Of a stretch of 64,000 nt of DNA, positions 8,934 to 62,518 are shown piece after piece. Each line of letters starts with the position of its first letter. The stretch's first letter is position 1. The notes below the pieces were generated by a model, which saw nothing but the letters and a program-made list of their open reading frames with translations, did no database searches and was not told the origin of the DNA. The DNA is from Fretibacterium sp. OH1220_COT-178 (lineage in GTDB: Bacteria; Synergistota; Synergistia; Synergistales; Aminobacteriaceae): assembly GCF_003860125.1 (NCBI RefSeq), contig NZ_RQYL01000001.1:62001-126000 (forward strand), in the 5' to 3' direction. A program made the translations under genes and the position numbers.

Positions 8934-11165
8934 TTGAGAGGAATTTCGCGTTTTTCGGCAGGAACCTTCCTGATGTTCGTCCTCTTTGCACACTTCATGG
9001 CAGGCGGCATTGCGGAGGGCAAGGGCATCCCAAGCGTCAGGAAGCAGAGCTACGACGTGGTTGTGGCCGGAGGCGGAATTGGAGGGATCGCGGCCGCCAT
9101 ACAGGCCGCCCGGCTCGGAGCCAGCGTCCTTGTCGTCGAGCCAAGCGCCTGGATCGGAGGACAGGCAACAGCCGCCGGGGTCTCTACCATGGACGACCTC
9201 AGCCGTCTCCGCAGTGGGCTTTACCTCGAATTCATCACCAAGCTCCGCGGATACTACGAGCCGTTGGGCAAATCCATGGGGACGTGCTATTGGGACGCCC
9301 GAAGCGTGGCCTTCGAACCCTATATCGGTCAGCGCATGCTCTACGAGATGATCGACGAGACCCGCAAGGGAGGCCAGAACACTCTGGACATCCTCCTCTC
9401 CTCCACGGTGACGGAGGTGCGGCGCGAGAAGCGGACGGTGCGGGGCCTGACCGTCCACAACGCCGGCGGAGCCCACAAAATCACCTGCCGCGTCCTGATC
9501 GACGCGACGGAGTACGGGGATATCCTGCCCCTGGCAAAAACCGCGTATCGAGCCGGAAACTCCATCTCGCCCTTCGTCGATCCCGAAGCCATGATCCAGG
9601 ACATCACCTGGGTCGCCGTCATTCAAAAGTATCCGGGCGGCATCCCCGGCCATCTGCGCATGACAACGCCCCTGCCCGGCTACGAACTGGCTCGGCGCAA
9701 CTACGAGAGTTACGTCACCCGGGACGGGATGGACTTCAAGGGGACCTATCCCGTAACGCTGCCGGTCAACTTCGTCAGCCACAACGCCTATCGCGGCCTC
9801 CCCGACTCCTCCTCCCATTGGGGCTACGATGCGAACCGGGAGAACTGGCCCCATATCTCCAAGTGCGGCGTCAATTGGGGCAACGACTATCCGGGGAAAT
9901 ACGGCTGGAACGGAAAGCGGGGTCTGCCCGCCGCCTACCTGGAGAACCCCGACCTCCGCAGGAGGGTGGAGCGGGACGCGCTGATCAAGACCCTCCACTT
10001 CATTTACTACATGCAAAACGAGCTGGGAGAGAATTGGTCCGTCGCGGACGACGAATATCATCATCCCGTCCTGCCTCAGGCCGCCGAGGGCCTGCCCGAC
10101 GAGTGGCTGGAGATCGTCCGGCGCATGCCCCCCATCCCCTACGTCCGGGAGTCGCGTCGTATCGTGGGGGATTTCACCCTGACCTCCGCGGAACTGCTGA
10201 AAAACTCCCTGAGCTACAGGGACGGCCAGACCAATCAGGAATTCCCGGACGCCATCGCCATCGGAGGCTACATCCTCGATCTGCACGGTGCGGACACGGA
10301 TTCTGACATGGAATGGATCTTCGACGAGAAGGCGGCTGCGGTACAGCACAACCGGCCGAGAGGCCCGTTTCAGGTCCCCCTGCGCGCACTCGTTCCACAG
10401 GACACGGACGGCCTGCTCGCGGCGGAAAAAAATCTGTCCATGTCCCGCCTGGCCGCCGGGGCGCTGCGCCTTCAGCCCATATCCATGATGACTGGCCAGG
10501 CCGCAGGCGCCCTTGCCGCCCTGTCCATCCGGGACGGCGTCCAACCCCGAGCGCTTCCCGCCGTCCGCGTCCAGCGCGCCCTGCTGGAGGCCGGGGTGGT
10601 GCTGTCGCTCTGCAAATACTCGGACGTTCCTCCGGCACACCCTTACCACAACGCCACGCAAATCGCCAATCTCTACAGGCTGGTCGTTCCGGTCGAACCC
10701 CCTCACGCCCCGTCCTACAACATCAGCGACCTCGACGACGCCGTCCTGGCCATGGCCATCATCAAGGGACACGACAAGGGCGTCTTCGGCGTGGACGAGA
10801 TGCTGACGTGGCGCGAGACCGTCGCCATGATGGAAAAGGCCCGCTCGGCATCCGGAACGGCCCTGGGCAACATTCCTCCTCTCGGGGACAAACCCGACGC
10901 CTTCGTGAATCGGGGCCAGTTCGCCAAAGCCCTCTGCGATGCCTTCGGCTTTCTTCAGCCCGGCGTATTCGCCAATGGGGGGGAGAAAGGGCAGTTCTTC
11001 TCCCTGCCGGAGCACCCCAACACCCCGGCGGTAGCAGCCCTTGCGCCTCTCGGCATCCTGGATCTCTACAAGTCGGAGCGGGAATTTCGATTCGGCCGTC
11101 CGGTGACGCGGGGGGAAGCCGCAGAGATGGTGATGAGGGCGATGACCATCGCAAAGCTGCCCTGA
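8934..11165 (+). CDS. Exported FAD-dependent oxidoreductase with SLH-like C-terminal repeats
   Basis: 743 residues from a TTG start set by an AGGAGG at 8921-8926. An N-terminal signal sequence (about 1-30) precedes a Rossmann FAD site (YDVVVAGGGIGGIAAAIQAARLG at about 40-62) and VVEPSAWIGGQATAAG, placing it in the FAD-dependent oxidoreductase family often listed as 'xanthan lyase-like' or FAD_oxidored. The FAD-closing region is LRLQPISMMTGQAAGALAALS. The last about 140 residues contain two S-layer-homology-like units (VNRGQFAKALCDAFGF; LGILDLYKSEREFRFG then VTRGEAAEMVMRAM), suggesting attachment to the cell surface. The substrate cannot be told. Confidence 0.8.
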   Translation: MRGISRFSAGTFLMFVLFAHFMAGGIAEGKGIPSVRKQSYDVVVAGGGIGGIAAAIQAARLGASVLVVEPSAWIGGQATAAGVSTMDDLSRLRSGLYLEFITKLRGYYEPLGKSMGTCYWDARSVAFEPYIGQRMLYEMIDETRKGGQNTLDILLSSTVTEVRREKRTVRGLTVHNAGGAHKITCRVLIDATEYGDILPLAKTAYRAGNSISPFVDPEAMIQDITWVAVIQKYPGGIPGHLRMTTPLPGYELARRNYESYVTRDGMDFKGTYPVTLPVNFVSHNAYRGLPDSSSHWGYDANRENWPHISKCGVNWGNDYPGKYGWNGKRGLPAAYLENPDLRRRVERDALIKTLHFIYYMQNELGENWSVADDEYHHPVLPQAAEGLPDEWLEIVRRMPPIPYVRESRRIVGDFTLTSAELLKNSLSYRDGQTNQEFPDAIAIGGYILDLHGADTDSDMEWIFDEKAAAVQHNRPRGPFQVPLRALVPQDTDGLLAAEKNLSMSRLAAGALRLQPISMMTGQAAGALAALSIRDGVQPRALPAVRVQRALLEAGVVLSLCKYSDVPPAHPYHNATQIANLYRLVVPVEPPHAPSYNISDLDDAVLAMAIIKGHDKGVFGVDEMLTWRETVAMMEKARSASGTALGNIPPLGDKPDAFVNRGQFAKALCDAFGFLQPGVFANGGEKGQFFSLPEHPNTPAVAALAPLGILDLYKSEREFRFGRPVTRGEAAEMVMRAMTIAKLP

Positions 11166-11693: not shown

Positions 11694-12482
11694 ATGTGGA
11701 GCCTGTACGACGCATTGATCTCGGGGATCCCCAGCGGGCTCACCGTCAGCGCCTACAACCTCGGGTGCCGCTGGACGACGGTTGCTGCGGCAGGGAACGT
11801 CGGCATCGCCCATACGACGCACGGAAGGGGTCCGGATCGTCTGCACGACGGGCCCCTGACGGGCATGGCCCTGCGGGATGCGGCCGCCCTGGCCAAATCC
11901 TGGGACTTTCCAGAGGCCTCCTTGGGCGTCGCGGCCATCAACGCCTACTACAACACCTGGGACAGGGCCCGGTCGCTCCCGGGCTTCAAGGCAGCGGACG
12001 AGCTGAGGGACGACATCGGGAGCCGGACGGAGAAGAACGCCTTTTACGCGTTCCGGGACGAGATTGAGGGGAAAAGAGTCGCCATTGTCGGGCATTTTCC
12101 TCATATCGAAGAACGGATTGCGCCGCTGTGCCGGCTCTCCATCCTGGAGCGCACCCCCTCCCGGGGCGACTACCCCGACAGCGCCTGTGAGTACATCCTG
12201 CCGGATCAGGACTACGTCTTCATCACCGGCATGACCCTGGTCAACAAGACGCTGCCGCGCCTTCTGCAGATCTGCGGAGACGCCCGGGTGTCGCTGGTGG
12301 GCCCGACGGTGCCGCTCGCCCCGATTCTTTTCGCCCACGGGGTCGACAACCTCTCCGGGTTCGTCTGCACGGAGCCGGAGAGGGTGGACGAGACCGTTCG
12401 GCGCGGCTGTTCGATGGAGATCTTCACGGGCGGGCGCATGGTCAGCATCGACGCGCTCAGCGCCGGGGGACGTTCGGAATGA
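11694..12482 (+). CDS. DUF364 / DUF4213 family protein (putative heavy-metal chelation)
   Basis: 262 residues. The N-terminal part (about 1-90) fits DUF4213 (TVSAYNLGCRWTTVAAAG... GIAHTTHG... LRDAAALAKSWDFPEASLGVAAINAYYN) and the C-terminal part (about 110-250) fits DUF364, a Rossmann-like domain (RVAIVGHFP, YPDSACEYILPDQDYVFITGMTLVNKTLPRLL, LVGPTVPLAPILFAHGVDNLSGF). The family is usually found next to FecCD-type metal ABC transporters and molybdenum genes and is thought to handle a metal or metal complex. Here it heads the locus; its stop overlaps the methyltransferase start (ATGA). Confidence 0.88.
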   Translation: MWSLYDALISGIPSGLTVSAYNLGCRWTTVAAAGNVGIAHTTHGRGPDRLHDGPLTGMALRDAAALAKSWDFPEASLGVAAINAYYNTWDRARSLPGFKAADELRDDIGSRTEKNAFYAFRDEIEGKRVAIVGHFPHIEERIAPLCRLSILERTPSRGDYPDSACEYILPDQDYVFITGMTLVNKTLPRLLQICGDARVSLVGPTVPLAPILFAHGVDNLSGFVCTEPERVDETVRRGCSMEIFTGGRMVSIDALSAGGRSE

Positions 12483-13125
12483 CCGCCGGGAGCGGACCGG
12501 GCATGGACGACGCCCTGGATTACGACTCGATCGCCAGCGAGGTCTTTGCGCCGCTGTATCCCGTGGTCGCGGAGGCAATCCTGAAGCGCACCGGCATCCT
12601 CTCCGGCAGGATGCTGGACATCGGATGCGGGGGCGGGCACCTGGGCTATGCCGTCATGGAGAAGGCCGAGTTCGAGGGCTGGCTTCTCGACATCTCTCCC
12701 GATGCCGTCGCCCTCTGCCGGAGACGCTCGCTCGAACTGGGACTGGAGGACAGGAGCCGCTGCCTCGTCGGGGATGTTCATGCCCTGCCGTTCGGGGACG
12801 CTTTTTTCGACCTCGTCGTCAGTCGGGGTTCTCTCGGGTTCTGGCGCGATTATCCCTTGGCGTTTCGGGAGATCCGCAGAGTGCTGAAGCCCGGCGGAAA
12901 GGCCTACGTCGGAGGCGGGCTCGGGAACCGGGAGACGTTCGAGCGGATAAGGGGGCCCGGATGCGGGAGCTCGATCCGGACTGGCCCGCCAGTATCAGGA
13001 AAAAACAGCGCAACGCCTCCACCGCGGAGCTCCGCGACATCATAGAACGCCTGGGGCTCGGATGCGAGGTCGTGGAGAGCGAGGACGAAGGCCGATGGTT
13101 CGTCCTGTCGCGGCCGGGGCCCTGA
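12479..13125 (+). pseudogene. Class I SAM-dependent methyltransferase, interrupted by a frameshift
   Basis: The first frame (from 12479) reads a clear methyltransferase: motif I MLDIGCGGGHLGYAV, LLDISPDAVALCR, GDVHALPFGDAFFDLVVSRGSLGFW and VLKPGGKAYVGGG. At a run of five G (12951-12955) the sense moves to the -1 frame, which continues ARMRELDPDWPASIRKKQ and ends RWFVLSRPGP at 13125, just before the next gene. In the original frame translation continues with low-complexity Pro/Ser sequence to 13045. One missing G would restore a single 216-residue protein. It could be a true mutation, a sequencing error in a homopolymer, or frameshifting; the locus shows other decay. Confidence 0.8.
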
Positions 13126-13126
13126 C

Positions 13127-14008
13127 ATGGGAAGGCTGCGCCCGGAACTTCTTCCGAAAGGGCGGATATGGCCGTTGATGGTGGCCGCCCCCGTCGCCCT
13201 GTTCTTCCTGTCCTTCGCCATCGGCAGGTACCCCATCGGGGCCGGGACACAGGTGCTGCTCTCTATGGGGCCGGCGAAGCCGAAGGCGACCGACGCCTCC
13301 CTGGCCGACGAACTGCAGGAGCAGCTGGGGATACCGGTGATCGTGGTGGACGCCTCGATGGAAAACGTCGAGGAGACCTATGCGTTCCTGGGGCGTATCC
13401 TGGGCCGGGAGGAGCGCGCCGCCGCACTGGCCGCGTACTGCAGGGCGGCGCTCGATGACGTGAGGAGGAAGGTCTCCGCCATTCCCGAGGAGAAGCGCGT
13501 CCGCGTGTACTACGCCGAGGGACCCGACGGCCTCTCCACGGAGCCCGAATCGTCCGCCCACGCGGCGGTCCTGAAGTTTGCCGGGGCCAAAAACGTGGCC
13601 GACGTGAAGCTCGTTCCGGGAAGCGGCATGTCTCCGGTGTCCCTGGAACAGGTTCTGCACTGGGACCCCGAGGTCATCATCGCTTGGGAGGACCTCCGCG
13701 GCGGCGCACACGCCATGATAGGGAACAATCCGGACTGGGCAGGCATCCGCGCCGTGAAGGACGGACGCGTCTACGCCATGCCGAACACCCCCTTCAGCTG
13801 GATGGACCGCCCTCCGTCGGTCAACCGCTTTCTGGGCCTCCAGTGGGTGGCTCATCTGTTCTATCCCGAGGTCTATGACGTCGACATCCGGGCGGTGACC
13901 CGGGAGTTCTACGACCTGTTCTACTCCGTGAAGCTCACGGACGCCCAGATCGACGACCTCCTGAAGAACGCCGTGAGCGCCCCGGACCGGCCGAAAACGG
14001 GCCGGTGA
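13127..14008 (+). CDS. Chimeric ABC-transporter remnant: FecCD permease start joined to a substrate-binding protein
   Basis: 293 residues. Residues 1-40 look like the first segment of a FecCD-type metal/corrinoid permease: a basic start, a hydrophobic helix and the family-typical LSFAIGRYPIGAG. From about residue 46 the sequence is instead the second half of a FepB/BtuF-type periplasmic binding protein (SLADELQEQLGIPVIVVDAS, AFLGRILGREERA, WDPEVIIAWEDL, WAGIRAVKDGRVYAMPN, RFLGLQWVAHLFYPEVYD). The N-lobe of the binding protein, the rest of the permease and any ATPase are missing. The join near QVLLSMG is in frame, as expected for an internal deletion. Whether the product is made or useful is unknown. 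Confidence 0.72.
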   Translation: MGRLRPELLPKGRIWPLMVAAPVALFFLSFAIGRYPIGAGTQVLLSMGPAKPKATDASLADELQEQLGIPVIVVDASMENVEETYAFLGRILGREERAAALAAYCRAALDDVRRKVSAIPEEKRVRVYYAEGPDGLSTEPESSAHAAVLKFAGAKNVADVKLVPGSGMSPVSLEQVLHWDPEVIIAWEDLRGGAHAMIGNNPDWAGIRAVKDGRVYAMPNTPFSWMDRPPSVNRFLGLQWVAHLFYPEVYDVDIRAVTREFYDLFYSVKLTDAQIDDLLKNAVSAPDRPKTGR

Positions 14009-14048
14009 CGGGCGGCTTCCGACTCGCATAGCGACAGGGAGGATTTTC

Positions 14049-15329
14049 ATGTCCACGAACGTTCTGAGACTGCCGAGCTTTGAGAACCTGCCCACGCGGG
14101 AGGAGGTGCTGGACCGCCTGTTCGCGCTGTGGCGGCCCGAGCTTCCGGCCGAGATTGTCGCGGTGGAGGACGCTCTGGGCCGGGTCACGGCGGAGGACTG
14201 CCGCGCCCGGATCAGCCTGCCGGTGGTGCGCGCCTCCGCCGGGGACGGGATCGCCGTCGATTCCCGACGGTTCCGGGACGGGCTCCCGGACACCTCGGAC
14301 TGGCAGATGGGAAGGGATTTCGTTCGGGCCGACACGGGGGACGATTTCGACGACCGGTTCGACGCCGTCGTCATGATCGAGGACGTCGAGCTGGACGGCG
14401 ACGGCCAGCTCCGCATCCGCAGCGGGGTGACGGTGCGGAGGGGAAGCAACGTCCACCCCTCCGGGAGCATCGTGACGGAGGGGGAACTGCTGGTGGCCAG
14501 GCACATGCCGCTGCGGCCGAGGGACCTGGCCTGCCTCCACCTCGGAGGCGTCTGGGACGTCCCGGTGCTGAAGAGGCCCGCGGTGGCCTTTATCCCCACG
14601 GGGAACGAACTCGTCCCCCCGCGCAGCGCGGTACCCCGTGGAAAGAACGTCGACAGCAACAGCGTGCTCGCCCGGACCAGCCTCCAACTCCTGGGCGCGG
14701 AGCCGCTTCTCTACCCCATCGTCCCCGACGACAGGACGATGCTGAACGCGGCGCTGGACGACGCCCTGGGGAGGGCGGACATCGTCATCCTCAACGGCGG
14801 CTCCTCCAAGGGGGGCGAGGACCACAACGCCCGCCTGCTGCACGAACGGGGAACGGTGCTGTGCCACGGGGCCGCCGCCGCTCCGGGCAAGCCGCTGTGC
14901 GCGGCGATGGTGGACGGCAAACCCATCGTGAACCTTCCGGGCCCCTTCATCGCGGCCTATCATGGGTTCGAGTGGTGCATCGGTGCCCTGGTGTCGTACT
15001 GCCTGCATCAGCCGAAACCCGAGCACCGTCCCCTGGAGGTGACGCTCTCCGGGGGCCTGCCGAGCTCGGATCAGGTCTCGCTTTTGTGCAATCTCGACGT
15101 GCGTCGTGGCGAGGATGGAGGGTACGTCGCCCATCCCATCGACTTCAGGCGCTCGTCGGCCGCACGAACGGCATCCGCCAACGCCCAGTACATGACGCCG
15201 CCGGGCGGTCCGGTCCCGAGTGCGGACAGCAAGCTCGTCGTCGAGCTCCTCAGGGAGGCGGGGTCCATCGCACGCGACCCGACGGTCGGGAACGTCTTGG
15301 AGAAAGGACGCTCCCCGTTTTCCCGGTGA
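14049..15329 (+). CDS. MoeA-family molybdopterin molybdenumtransferase-like protein
   Basis: 426 residues. MoeA inserts molybdate (or tungstate) into adenylylated molybdopterin. Seen: the N-terminal region (TREEVLDRLFALW..., VEDALGRVTAEDCRA, VVRASAGDGIAVDSRRF), the MoeA/MogA core (VAFIPTGNELVPP, KNVDSNSVLARTSLQLLGAE, VPDDRTMLNAALDDAL, ADIVILNGGSSKGGEDHN, HGAAAAPGKPLCAAMVDGKPIVNLPGPF). The usual GGVSxGxxD signature is replaced by NGGSSKGGEDHN, and the first domain reads SAGDGIAVDS where canonical MoeA has xMDGYAxxxxD, so this is a divergent paralogue type often found with molybdate transporters. AGGGAGG precedes the ATG. Confidence 0.85.
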   Translation: MSTNVLRLPSFENLPTREEVLDRLFALWRPELPAEIVAVEDALGRVTAEDCRARISLPVVRASAGDGIAVDSRRFRDGLPDTSDWQMGRDFVRADTGDDFDDRFDAVVMIEDVELDGDGQLRIRSGVTVRRGSNVHPSGSIVTEGELLVARHMPLRPRDLACLHLGGVWDVPVLKRPAVAFIPTGNELVPPRSAVPRGKNVDSNSVLARTSLQLLGAEPLLYPIVPDDRTMLNAALDDALGRADIVILNGGSSKGGEDHNARLLHERGTVLCHGAAAAPGKPLCAAMVDGKPIVNLPGPFIAAYHGFEWCIGALVSYCLHQPKPEHRPLEVTLSGGLPSSDQVSLLCNLDVRRGEDGGYVAHPIDFRRSSAARTASANAQYMTPPGGPVPSADSKLVVELLREAGSIARDPTVGNVLEKGRSPFSR

Positions 15330-15376
15330 TTTTCCGGCGGAGTTCGCATTTTTGTCATCTTGAGGTGGGGGTAAGA

Positions 15377-16123
15377 TTGCTCGAGGTACGGGTGAGGAAA
15401 CGCCTGGGAAACTTCTCGACGGAGGCGGATTTCGCACTGGAGGAAGTGGGGATCACGGCCCTCTACGGCCCCTCCGGCGCGGGGAAGACCACGCTGCTCA
15501 ACATGGTCGCCGGGCTCGTCGTCCCCGATGAGGGGCGCATCGTCTGCGACGGAACGGCCTTCTTCGACTCGGAGCGGAAGATCTTCCTGCCCGTGCAGCA
15601 AAGGGGCATCGGTTACGTGTTTCAGGAGCACCGCCTCTTTTCGCACCTCTCGGTTCGGAACAATCTGCTCTTTGCCTCGCGTTTCTGCGGGCGTCCCTTT
15701 TCCCGGGACTATTTCGACCGAGTGGCCAAGCTGCTCGAGTTGGGGCCGATGCTCGACCGCACGACCTCATCCCTGTCCGGAGGGGAGAGCCAGCGCGTCG
15801 CCATCGGCCGAGCGCTTCTGGCCTGCACGTCCGTCCTTCTGATGGACGAACCCCTGGCCTCGCTCGACTCTCAGCGCAAGGAGGAGTTGATGCGGTACAT
15901 CGCCACGATCCCCCGCAGGCTCGGCGTCTCCGTCCTGTACGTCACCCACGCCGAGGACAAGATCCCTCGCCTTGCCGACCGGGTGCTCCTGGTCCGGCGT
16001 GGGGCGAAGACCCGGCCGGCCCCTGCGGGAAATGGCGTCGGGCGGCCCCGGCATAACGAATTTGCACCATCGCTTGACGATCGCTCTATTGAAAATACCG
16101 AAAGGATGGGTGTGAAACGATGA
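15377..16123 (+). CDS. modC: Molybdate/tungstate ABC transporter ATP-binding protein (ModC-like, no TOBE domain)
   Basis: A TTG start at 15377 with GAGGTGGGG upstream gives 248 residues; the open frame before it lies inside the MoeA gene. ABC ATPase motifs are complete: Walker A YGPSGAGKTTLLNMVAGL, Q-loop YVFQEHRLFSHLSV, signature LSGGESQRVAIGRALL, Walker B VLLMDEPLASLD and the switch His in VLYVTHAED. Canonical ModC has about 350 residues with a molybdate-binding TOBE domain; it is absent here. The last about 35 residues (after ADRVLLVRRG) do not look like the family and may have drifted out of frame. It overlaps modA by ATGA. Confidence 0.88.
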   Translation: MLEVRVRKRLGNFSTEADFALEEVGITALYGPSGAGKTTLLNMVAGLVVPDEGRIVCDGTAFFDSERKIFLPVQQRGIGYVFQEHRLFSHLSVRNNLLFASRFCGRPFSRDYFDRVAKLLELGPMLDRTTSSLSGGESQRVAIGRALLACTSVLLMDEPLASLDSQRKEELMRYIATIPRRLGVSVLYVTHAEDKIPRLADRVLLVRRGAKTRPAPAGNGVGRPRHNEFAPSLDDRSIENTERMGVKR

Positions 16124-16863
16124 AGGAAAGAAAAGGAACTACAACGTTTTTGGCGGTCCTGTTCTTCTTCGCGGCTGCGGTGTCCTCGGCCTGGGGGCAG
16201 GGCGTCTCCGTGACCACGGGGGCGGGTTACAAGCAGATGGTGGAGGAACTGGGCAAGGCGTACCGGGAATCAGGCGCCGAGCTCGAGGAGATGTATGGCG
16301 GTCTCATCGGACAAATCCTGGTTCAGATCAAGCAGGGGAGCGGTGCCAACGTGGTGATCTCGGACAAGGGGACGCTGGACGCCGCCTCGCAGGGCGTCGA
16401 GTTCGGGCGCTTCGAGGCGCTCGGGGACACGGTGCTGGTGCTCGCCTGGCGAAAGGGGGTGGCCCTGTCGATACCAGGAGATCTTGAAAAGGAGGAGATC
16501 GCCCGAGTCGCCATGCCCGACCCCAAGGCGGCCATCTACGGACGCGCCGCGTCCAAGTTCCTGGAATCCTCCGAAATCGGGGCCAGGATCGGGGCCAAAC
16601 TGTCGGTCGTCTCCTCCGTCCCGCAGGTCTTCTCCTACCTGGTGTCCGGGGAGATGGACGCGGGGTTCGTCAACCGCGTCATGGTGCTCAACGCTGGGGA
16701 CAAGCTGGGCGGATGGCTGGAGATCGTCGAGGGATATCCGCCCCTGAAGATGGTCGCCGCAGTCGTCCAGGGGCATGAGAAGGATCCGAAGGTCCTGGAC
16801 TTCCTGGCCTTCCTGACGGGGGAGAAAGGAAGGGGGATCCTGAAACGGCACGGCATCTGGTGA
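16120..16863 (+). CDS. modA: Molybdate/tungstate-binding periplasmic protein (ModA-like)
   Basis: 247 residues with a signal peptide (about 1-27; TTTFLAVLFFFAAAVSSAWG). The mature part follows ModA: SVTTGAGYKQMVEELGKAYRE, NVVISDKGTLDAA, ALGDTVLVLAWRKG, EIARVAMPDPKAAIYGRAASKFL, QVFSYLVSGEMDAGFVNRV, and LDFLAFLTGEKGRGILKRHGIW as the closing helix. It delivers the oxyanion to ModB. It sits between the ATPase and permease genes, in the order C-A-B-D. Confidence 0.88.
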   Translation: MKERKGTTTFLAVLFFFAAAVSSAWGQGVSVTTGAGYKQMVEELGKAYRESGAELEEMYGGLIGQILVQIKQGSGANVVISDKGTLDAASQGVEFGRFEALGDTVLVLAWRKGVALSIPGDLEKEEIARVAMPDPKAAIYGRAASKFLESSEIGARIGAKLSVVSSVPQVFSYLVSGEMDAGFVNRVMVLNAGDKLGGWLEIVEGYPPLKMVAAVVQGHEKDPKVLDFLAFLTGEKGRGILKRHGIW

Positions 16864-16882
16864 TGGAGCCTTCCTGTCCGCC

Positions 16883-17563
16883 ATGTCGGAGTCCGGGTCC
16901 CTGAGCTTCCCCGTACTGCTGACGCTGCGGGTGTGCGCGGCCTGCGCCCTGCTCTATCTCGGAGTGGGGCTTCCCTGCGCTTGGTTCTGCCGTCGGCGGC
17001 GCAGCCTCGCCGCCCGTGCGCTGTCGTTTCTGGTGACGATTCCCCTGATATTCCCCCCGGTGGCCATGGGTTTTCTCCTGCTGCTCCTTCTGGGGCGTAA
17101 CGGCCCCGTGGGGGGAGCTCTCGAGCGCTGGGCCGGGCTCCGCATCGTGTTCTCGGAGGCCGGAGTCGTGCTCTCCGCGTTCGTCGCCGGACTGCCGCTG
17201 GTCGTCCGGCCCCTTCAAGCCGCGATGGAGCGCCCCGAGCTCTACAAGCTCGAGGAGGCCGCGCAAACCCTGGGGTGCGGCGCGCTCGGGACGTTCTGTT
17301 TCGTCACCGTACCGCAGACCTCCCGGGTACTCTTCTCCTGCCTCCTCCTGGGGATCGCCCGGGCCTCGGGGGAGGTGGGCATCACGATGATGCTGGGAGG
17401 GAACATCTCGGGTCGAACCAACACCCTGTCCCTGGAGATCTTCAACTGCGTCTCCAGAGGCGATTTCGATGCCGCGCTGCGGCTGTGCGCCGTTCTGGCC
17501 GTCCTCGGGGTACTGCTGTACGTTCTTCTGGAGGGCTGCCGCGGCAAGGGGGACGTTCCGTGA
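16883..17563 (+). CDS. modB: Molybdate ABC transporter permease (ModB-like)
   Basis: 226 residues, about five membrane helices, with the ABC permease EAA loop (ELYKLEEAAQTLGCGALGTFCFVTVPQTSR) that docks onto the ATPase and ARASGEVGITMMLGGNISGRTNTLSLEIF, the hallmark region of ModB permeases. It starts 20 bases after modA and belongs to the same operon. The best ribosome site (GGAG) is rather distant from the ATG, so translation may be partly coupled to modA. Confidence 0.9.
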   Translation: MSESGSLSFPVLLTLRVCAACALLYLGVGLPCAWFCRRRRSLAARALSFLVTIPLIFPPVAMGFLLLLLLGRNGPVGGALERWAGLRIVFSEAGVVLSAFVAGLPLVVRPLQAAMERPELYKLEEAAQTLGCGALGTFCFVTVPQTSRVLFSCLLLGIARASGEVGITMMLGGNISGRTNTLSLEIFNCVSRGDFDAALRLCAVLAVLGVLLYVLLEGCRGKGDVP

Positions 17564-17605
17564 CCGGAAAAAATTACTTCGCTGCATGAAAGGAGAATAT
17601 CGACG

Positions 17606-18448
17606 ATGTTTTGGGTATCCGACAGCCGCATAGAGGCGTGGATCGAGGAGGACCTGCATTTGATGGACGCGACGGTGGAGGCCCTGGGGATCGAGGAGCG
17701 TCCCGGACGGGTGGAGTGTTTTCCCAAGGAGGACTGCGTGATAGCCGGCGTGGAGGAGGCGGCCCGGATCTTCAGGACCGTGGGAGCGGGAGCGTCGGTG
17801 GAGCGTCCGAGCGGCAGCGTCCTGACGGCCGGCACCGTCTGTCTTCGGGCCGAGGGGACGGCGGGTCGGCTCCATGCCGTCTACAAGGCGGCACAGAACG
17901 TGATGGAATACGCCTCGGGGATCGCGACGCGATGCGCGCGGCTCGTGAGGAACGCAAAAAACGCGGCCCCATCCGTGGAGGTCGCCGTAACCCGGAAGCA
18001 CTTCCCCGGGACGAAACCCCTCTCCGTAAAGGCCGCCCTCGCCGGAGGGGCGACCGCACACCGGCTGGGGCTCTCGGAATCCATCCTCGTATTCGATCAG
18101 CACCGGGAGTTTATGACGGAGCAGGAGTTTGCGACCGCGATTCCCCGGATGGCCGCGCGATATCCCGAGAAGAGGATCATGGCGGAGGTCGACTCGACGG
18201 AGGAGGCCGTCCGTTTTGCCGAGGCGGGCGTCGATGTCGTCCAGTGTGAGCGTTTTTCTCCCCCCGAACTCCGCGAATGCGTCGGGCGGATACGGCGTAT
18301 CCGGCCCGGGATACGCGTCTCTGCCGCCGGGGGCGTCAACGCGGACAACGCGGCGGAATACGCCGCCACAGGGGTGGACGTCCTCGTCACCTCATGGGTG
18401 TACTTCGGCAAGCCTCAAGACGTCAAGATGCGGTTTTCCCGACTTTGA
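17606..18448 (+). CDS. modD: ModD protein (nicotinate-nucleotide pyrophosphorylase-like)
   Basis: 280 residues of the quinolinate phosphoribosyltransferase fold. ModD proteins accompany molybdate transport operons; their substrate is unknown. Seen: VIAGVEEAARIFRTVGA, the long central block NVMEYASGIATRCARLVRNAK, VTRKHFPGTKPLSVKAALAGGATAHRLGLSESILVFDQH, then EVDSTEEAVRFAEAGVDVVQCERFSP and ISAAGGVNADNAAEYAATGVDVLVTS-type barrel ends (here VSAAGGVNADNAAEYAA). AAAGGAG precedes the ATG. It ends the operon and is followed by a perfect palindrome. Confidence 0.88.
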   Translation: MFWVSDSRIEAWIEEDLHLMDATVEALGIEERPGRVECFPKEDCVIAGVEEAARIFRTVGAGASVERPSGSVLTAGTVCLRAEGTAGRLHAVYKAAQNVMEYASGIATRCARLVRNAKNAAPSVEVAVTRKHFPGTKPLSVKAALAGGATAHRLGLSESILVFDQHREFMTEQEFATAIPRMAARYPEKRIMAEVDSTEEAVRFAEAGVDVVQCERFSPPELRECVGRIRRIRPGIRVSAAGGVNADNAAEYAATGVDVLVTSWVYFGKPQDVKMRFSRL

Positions 18449-61876: not shown

Positions 61877-62518
61877 TTATTTTTTCCCCGAGCCCTTGGC
61901 CTTGATCTCGGCAAGGCGCCGGCCGGCACTCTGGGCCTGGGGCGTCTCGGGATAGTCCCGAACCACGGCCGCATAGGCCTCCCTTGCCCTTTCCGTCTCA
62001 TTCGCCTGATCCCAGGCCTCGGCCTCGGTCAAGGCCAGAAAGGGACGATAGGACGATGGCAGATCCATAGCCCCGGCCCGTAGAAGCTCCCGACAGAGCT
62101 CCACGACCCGGCTCCGGTTCTCCGTTCCCTCATACAGCAGGACCAATCGGTTTCGAACCTGAACGCCCCATCTCGAGGTGGGATAGTGCGCCAAAAAGAG
62201 CTCCAGCACCTCGCGCGCCATCTGTTCCCGGGGCTCGGGGAAGGAGTCGAGATAGAGATTGGACAGCGTCCAGAGCGCTTCTTCGGCGGCCTCGGTCTCC
62301 GGACAGGACTTCACGATTTCGTAATAAAGCGATTCGCGCTCTTCGACCCGCTCCTCGGGAAGACGGGAGATCGCCAGCCGAATCTCCAGGGCCCTTTGAT
62401 CCTGCTCCGCAAGGGACCGACCGGCCGCCGCCCCCGAAGCGGACGGCGAGGCGAATAACAAAATCCAGGACAGAGCGCAGAAAATCCGCCTCCACAAGTT
62501 TCGTTTAACGGCGAACAC
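61877..62518 (-). CDS. Exported tetratricopeptide-like repeat protein
   Basis: About 213 residues from a GTG at 62518; the longer open frame is likely not coding because the dhaK promoter lies there. A hydrophobic signal (IFCALSWILLFASPSASGAAAG) is followed by helical repeats resembling TPR/YbgF units (YEIVKSCPETEAAEEALWTLSNLYLD, ELFLAHYPTSRWGVQVRNRLVLLY, AYAAVVRDYPETPQAQSAGRRLAEIKAKG). It probably acts as a scaffold in the periplasm. Start uncertain. Confidence 0.7.
   Translation of the reverse strand: MFAVKRNLWRRIFCALSWILLFASPSASGAAAGRSLAEQDQRALEIRLAISRLPEERVEERESLYYEIVKSCPETEAAEEALWTLSNLYLDSFPEPREQMAREVLELFLAHYPTSRWGVQVRNRLVLLYEGTENRSRVVELCRELLRAGAMDLPSSYRPFLALTEAEAWDQANETERAREAYAAVVRDYPETPQAQSAGRRLAEIKAKGSGKK

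Follow-up and report, generated by a model that had tools for sequence, protein, structure and literature searches.

A FecCD-type permease start joined in frame to a binding-protein end in Fretibacterium sp. OH1220_COT-178, a probable remnant of a deleted transporter operon

Introduction

Transporters of the FecCD class need three components for import: a binding protein with two lobes, a dimeric permease and an ATPase. In the class III binding proteins (Peripla_BP_2) the ligand is held between the two lobes. Solved structures are available for such a protein from Sulfurospirillum deleyianum (4pag) and for HI1472 of Haemophilus influenzae (3psa/3psh), known as MolA.

Here we describe an open reading frame of Fretibacterium sp. 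OH1220_COT-178 that combines parts of a permease and of a class III binding protein. It lies in a window of 64,000 nucleotides (the whole stretch of DNA analyzed; positions 62,001 to 126,000 of contig NZ_RQYL01000001.1). Positions given below are those of the window, and the features given with coordinates from 11694 to 18448 are on the plus strand.

Results

The open reading frame at 13127-14008 encodes 293 aa from an ATG start without an internal stop. A FecCD-type permease contributes its first membrane helix, and the frame then runs on into a class III binding protein (BtuF/FepB-like), of which the last two-thirds are present. The start is placed directly after the stop of a methyltransferase gene, as would be expected of a functional operon. 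The permease N-terminus and first membrane helix account for residues 1 to about 41 (13127..13249). Of lobe 1 the binding-protein-derived part (13250..14008) retains only the two final strands, and these are followed by the inter-lobe helix and the entire lobe 2. Similarity switches from permease to binding protein within the codons of residues 37-42 (IGAGTQ, 13234..13252). An in-frame chimera of a permease start and a binding-protein end had been proposed in the first-pass annotation, and this was borne out by profile, motif and whole-genome matches.

The C-terminal part belongs to the family PF01497 (Peripla_BP_2), with 54.4 bits against a cut-off of 27.5 over profile positions 72-233 of 235. 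Against a profile of 61 intact relatives it scored 334 bits, beginning at position 116 of 348. When the binding protein of locus L110 (353 aa) was compared with the whole genome, its alignment to the chimeric reading frame began at query residue 112 and window position 13253. Seven further places in the genome were matched, with alignments starting at query residues 2-47; the one on contig C53 starts at base 5 of that contig. A pair of lobes with a ligand cleft is not encoded, as the similarity starts only at these points in the profile and in the L110 protein. A separate signal peptide or lipobox is apparently not present either, since the reading frame starts with the permease helix and the first 46 residues contain no Cys. 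Similarity to binding proteins had previously been placed from about residue 46; the origin was correct but the start is at about residue 42-43. Likewise, lobe 2 was rightly recognized, but lobe 1 is not missing altogether because its last two strands are retained. The lobe boundaries in the chimera were set in part by analogy with BtuF.

A profile built from 54 FecCD permeases gave the N-terminal 46 residues 10.4 bits, with the alignment at the N-terminus of the profile (positions 13-39). Among 2,000 shuffled versions of the same residues the highest score was 6.4 bits, and the unshuffled stretch scored 7.3 bits inside the whole reading frame. By itself this profile score is weak evidence, but a permease origin is backed by two further results. 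A search of the whole genome with the L110 permease returned five complete permeases and then, as sixth and last match, the start of 13127-14008 (43%, E 0.0028). In addition, the stretch SFAIGRYP is common to the chimera and permeases such as that of L012 (VSFAIGRYP). The corresponding motif [LFI]S[LF].[IL]GRYP was present in 7 of the 54 permeases. In the other reading frames of the fetched loci (727,680 residues) it was found only in three copies of the chimeric reading frame and in one permease copy, which had been left out of the 54 as a near-duplicate or unselected.

A complete multi-helix FecCD membrane domain is not present, and a genome search with PF01032 did not report the locus. Residues 13-37 form the sole strongly hydrophobic stretch of the chimera (19-residue means 1.6-2.2; best elsewhere 0.82). 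They are preceded by 13 residues of which four are basic, which favours a location of the binding-protein part outside. The earlier prediction of a single membrane helix with this part outside fits these features, i.e., one N-terminal hydrophobic stretch and a soluble domain.

Binding-protein similarity could be followed back to Q42/V43, where QVLLSMGP in the chimera corresponds to DLFLHMGP in L110 and EVLLSVGS in L112. Permease-like sequence can extend to T41 (GRYFIAPGT in the paralogue L114). This places the join at about 13234-13252, well inside contig C1 (about C1:75,234-75,252). A deletion between shared 'VLL' stretches, as first suggested, does not agree with this, because QVLLSMGP is binding-protein sequence alone and the switch is upstream of it, in codons 37-42. 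In L114 the permease and binding-protein genes have TCATCGC in common at the register of the join. A comparable shared repeat was absent in five other relatives compared, and only short imperfect direct repeats, none at the join, were seen around the locus. A deletion mediated by a short repeat is therefore only possible.

The order permease, ATPase, binding protein was found intact in 8 of 18 tabulated loci (L110, L111, L112, L114, L115, L038, L043, and L045, with L111 and L043 both counted although they seem to represent one contig). Among the remaining loci, the binding protein is located elsewhere in L039-L042 and L086, a contig end interrupts L106 and L113, and no permease was seen in L077, L047, and L090. 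The segment absent from the chimera measures 1,971-2,100 bp in six of the seven collinear loci measured; the seventh, L045, has 4,389 bp and holds an extra binding-protein gene. L114 has no segment length, as its permease motif was missed by the measurement. L114 lies on contig C4 of the same genome and represents a paralogue, a complete transporter with the same gene order.

Five complete FecCD permeases are encoded on other contigs of the genome, each with its own binding protein nearby; these are separate systems. Relocation of the missing permease was ruled out, since profile and sequence searches of the whole genome found no orphan permease. Comparison with intact loci of related genomes thus gave about 2 kb in the collinear relatives and none here. 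Together with the gene order of L114 and the absence of an orphan permease, this supports the internal deletion in a permease-ATPase-binding protein operon that had been proposed.

A natural family of proteins with this architecture was looked for and none was found among 39 relatives (own genome included, no congeneric genome in the set), 185 genomes of the phylum (own included; threshold 1e-30) or 55 loci from other species, one of which (L092) is cut by its own contig end. The search of the 185 genomes listed 11 places, and all besides the chimera itself begin at query residue 37 or later. Matches from query residues 25, 17, and 10 in L062, L082, and L084 were rejected as chimeras, as these are reading frames of 365-394 aa in which the shared part starts at residue 155-162, i.e., ordinary binding proteins. 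Short reading frames in L066 and L090 were also rejected, since their three forward frames show broken or masked sequence. Among the papers listed for in-frame fusions of this kind none was relevant, judged by title.

In 32 relatives, 42 positions of the binding-protein part show at least 90% conservation, and the chimera has kept 41 of these. The single miss is residue 42, at the join, and is probably a misalignment. The relatives themselves miss 0-5 of their 42-44 conserved positions each. GC3 of the retained part was of coding type (0.87). Conservation to this degree indicates that the sequence has not drifted, so that the deletion is recent, or the assembly is wrong, or the reading frame is in use.

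A structure model of the chimera (33 sequences in the alignment) had a mean pLDDT of 79.8. Residues 1-51 were modelled below pLDDT 50; the inter-lobe helices and lobe 2 were confident, with 165 residues at pLDDT 90 or more. The best structural matches of the model were binding proteins, with the 4pag chains first (TM-score 0.65, normalised by target length). For the two chains Foldseek gave E 5.4e-17 and 9.8e-17 at 35% identity, with an rmsd of 2.3 over 230-231 columns.

The first gene of the cluster (11694..12482) encodes a DUF4213/DUF364 protein of 262 aa (Pfam DUF364 122 bits, DUF4213 63.6 bits). Of the 185 phylum genomes searched, only its own gave a match at E<=1e-20, which hints that part of the cluster may have been acquired horizontally. 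The nearest fetched relatives of this gene (11694-12482) are in the Coriobacteriaceae MAGs L039 and L040 (about 44%). Farther upstream, a FAD_oxidored protein of 743 aa (8934-11165) has a C-terminal end with a weak match to an S-layer homology domain, at the limit of the Pfam cut-off (20.8 bits, E 0.00039).

A SAM methyltransferase gene (12479..13125; Methyltransf_11 73 bits) follows and appears to be frameshifted at about 12949-12960. It reads in frame 1 to about 12952 and continues in the frame ending at 13125, where GC3 is of coding type (0.82). Four homologues of 204-219 aa match frame 1 only as far as 12934-12952. In one of them, from L086, the C-terminus could be aligned with frame 3 at 12934-13113 (20%, E 0.014); the C-termini of the other three had no frame 3 match. 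A read-through product of about 215 aa would suit the homologues in length. A run of five G (12951-12955) lies beside the frame change, and the apparent frameshift could be real, i.e., gene decay, or a sequencing error. The apparent frameshift is absent from the first-pass annotation. Together with the join it probably makes two lesions in about 300 bp. In a rough coding scan of the 64 kb, which did not proceed gene by gene, no further gene looked obviously split.

Downstream of the chimera is a MoeA-like gene of 426 aa (14049..15329), with MoeA_N and MoCF_biosynth domains and 250 bits to NF011068, under the model cut-off of 534; it is 44% identical to a MoeA-like gene in Coriobacteriaceae L040. 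Genes for a molybdate binding protein ModA (16120..16863; TIGR01256 modA 71.2 bits, cut-off 62.5), a ModB-like permease (16883..17563; BPD_transp_1 38.7 bits) and ModD (17606..18448; TIGR01334 modD 244 bits, cut-off 178.85) follow. The reading frame between the MoeA-like gene and ModA has a putative ATPase Walker A motif, recognized by eye, and this Mod-type system is apparently intact. The Coriobacteriaceae cluster L039/L040 has a similar gene content, with binding protein, permease, ATPase, two MoeA-like genes and DUF364.

Binding-protein relatives recur in Azotobacter, Azomonas, Azonexus, Rhodocyclales, and Methanospirillum (L046-L091), many of which are presumably nitrogen fixers. Such a distribution would fit a role of the binding-protein family with molybdenum or vanadium. 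The cluster context, that is the DUF364 gene, the MoeA-like gene, ModA, the ModB-like permease and ModD, suggests molybdate, tungstate or a similar metal complex as the substrate of the lost FecCD-type system. PMC2954201, on the structure of a DUF364 protein, connects the family through genome context with molybdate, tungstate, vanadium, and iron transport.

Discussion

Judging from the sequence, the chimeric reading frame is probably a recent pseudogene, formed by one internal deletion that joined its ends in frame, i.e., by ordinary operon decay. A single deletion is the simplest account of the locus. It would have removed about 2.0-2.1 kb from a permease-ATPase-binding protein operon, so that the ATPase was lost entirely, the FecCD-type permease almost entirely and the binding protein over its first third. 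The ends would have met in frame by luck, at one chance in three. If translated, the product would be one membrane helix bearing an incomplete binding protein outside, with no complete cleft, pore or ATPase, and could not transport, since FecCD-type import depends on all three components of the system. Loss of the transporter could have been tolerated thanks to the Mod-type system 2-4 kb downstream. Of the three ways to explain the lack of drift, we infer that a recent deletion is the most likely, because of the probable lesion next to it, the lack of any other such protein, and the redundancy provided by five FecCD permeases and the Mod-type system. That the reading frame has been kept in use is the least likely.

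An intact genome in which the assembler skipped about 2 kb would also account for a binding-protein part free of decay, and this we consider unlikely. The assembly is a draft of 105 contigs, the five-G run at the methyltransferase frameshift is a classic site of error, and the L114 breakpoints have a 7-base run in common. However, the join is far inside contig C1, and the few bases presumably shared there would not suffice to confuse an assembler. Furthermore, the missing genes were found on no other contig, the five strong FecCD matches having binding proteins of their own nearby.

It is very unlikely that the chimera is a functional new protein, i.e., a membrane-tethered single-lobe binder that sequesters a ligand or passes it to the paralogous transporter on C4. 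The 293 open codons, the intact conserved positions, the confidently modelled lobe 2 and the completeness of that transporter would agree with it. The permease-derived start was however poorly modelled (residues 1-51), and most of lobe 1 is gone although class III ligands sit between the two lobes. Neither the 185 phylum genomes nor the 55 loci held a relative of the same architecture, and the upstream methyltransferase appears broken. We give still less credence to an expressed protein that is maintained as a membrane-anchored half binding protein and uses its conserved ligand-lobe surface to modulate the FecCD transporter on C4 or to sense the ligand of the latter. If the reading frame did prove to be expressed and conserved, it would represent an unusual half-lobe design. 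Two or more events, such as loss of the ATPase first and fusion later, are very unlikely, as one deletion in the collinear order of the relatives suffices.

Read as the remnant of a recent deletion, the locus is a clean case of operon loss by apparently one event, beside a redundant molybdate system. Automatic pipelines would probably label the reading frame a binding protein although the parent system is gone.

Compared to the molybdate-binding class III protein HI1472, the retained part has the same fold and family (Foldseek E 7.1e-10) at 24% identity, and both occur in a molybdate context. HI1472 has two complete lobes, and for the chimera molybdate is only a putative ligand. With the FecCD/BtuC-type permeases of the same operon family (e.g., L110, L044, and L012) the chimera has the first helix and the SF.[IL]GRYP stretch in common, but it lacks about 300 of their about 340 residues. 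The nearest solved class III protein is 4pag, with which residues about 42-282 align along lobe 2. Unlike proteins of the 4pag type, the chimera apparently has no signal peptide and its lobe 1 is reduced to two strands; a permease helix replaces the signal peptide and the rest of lobe 1.
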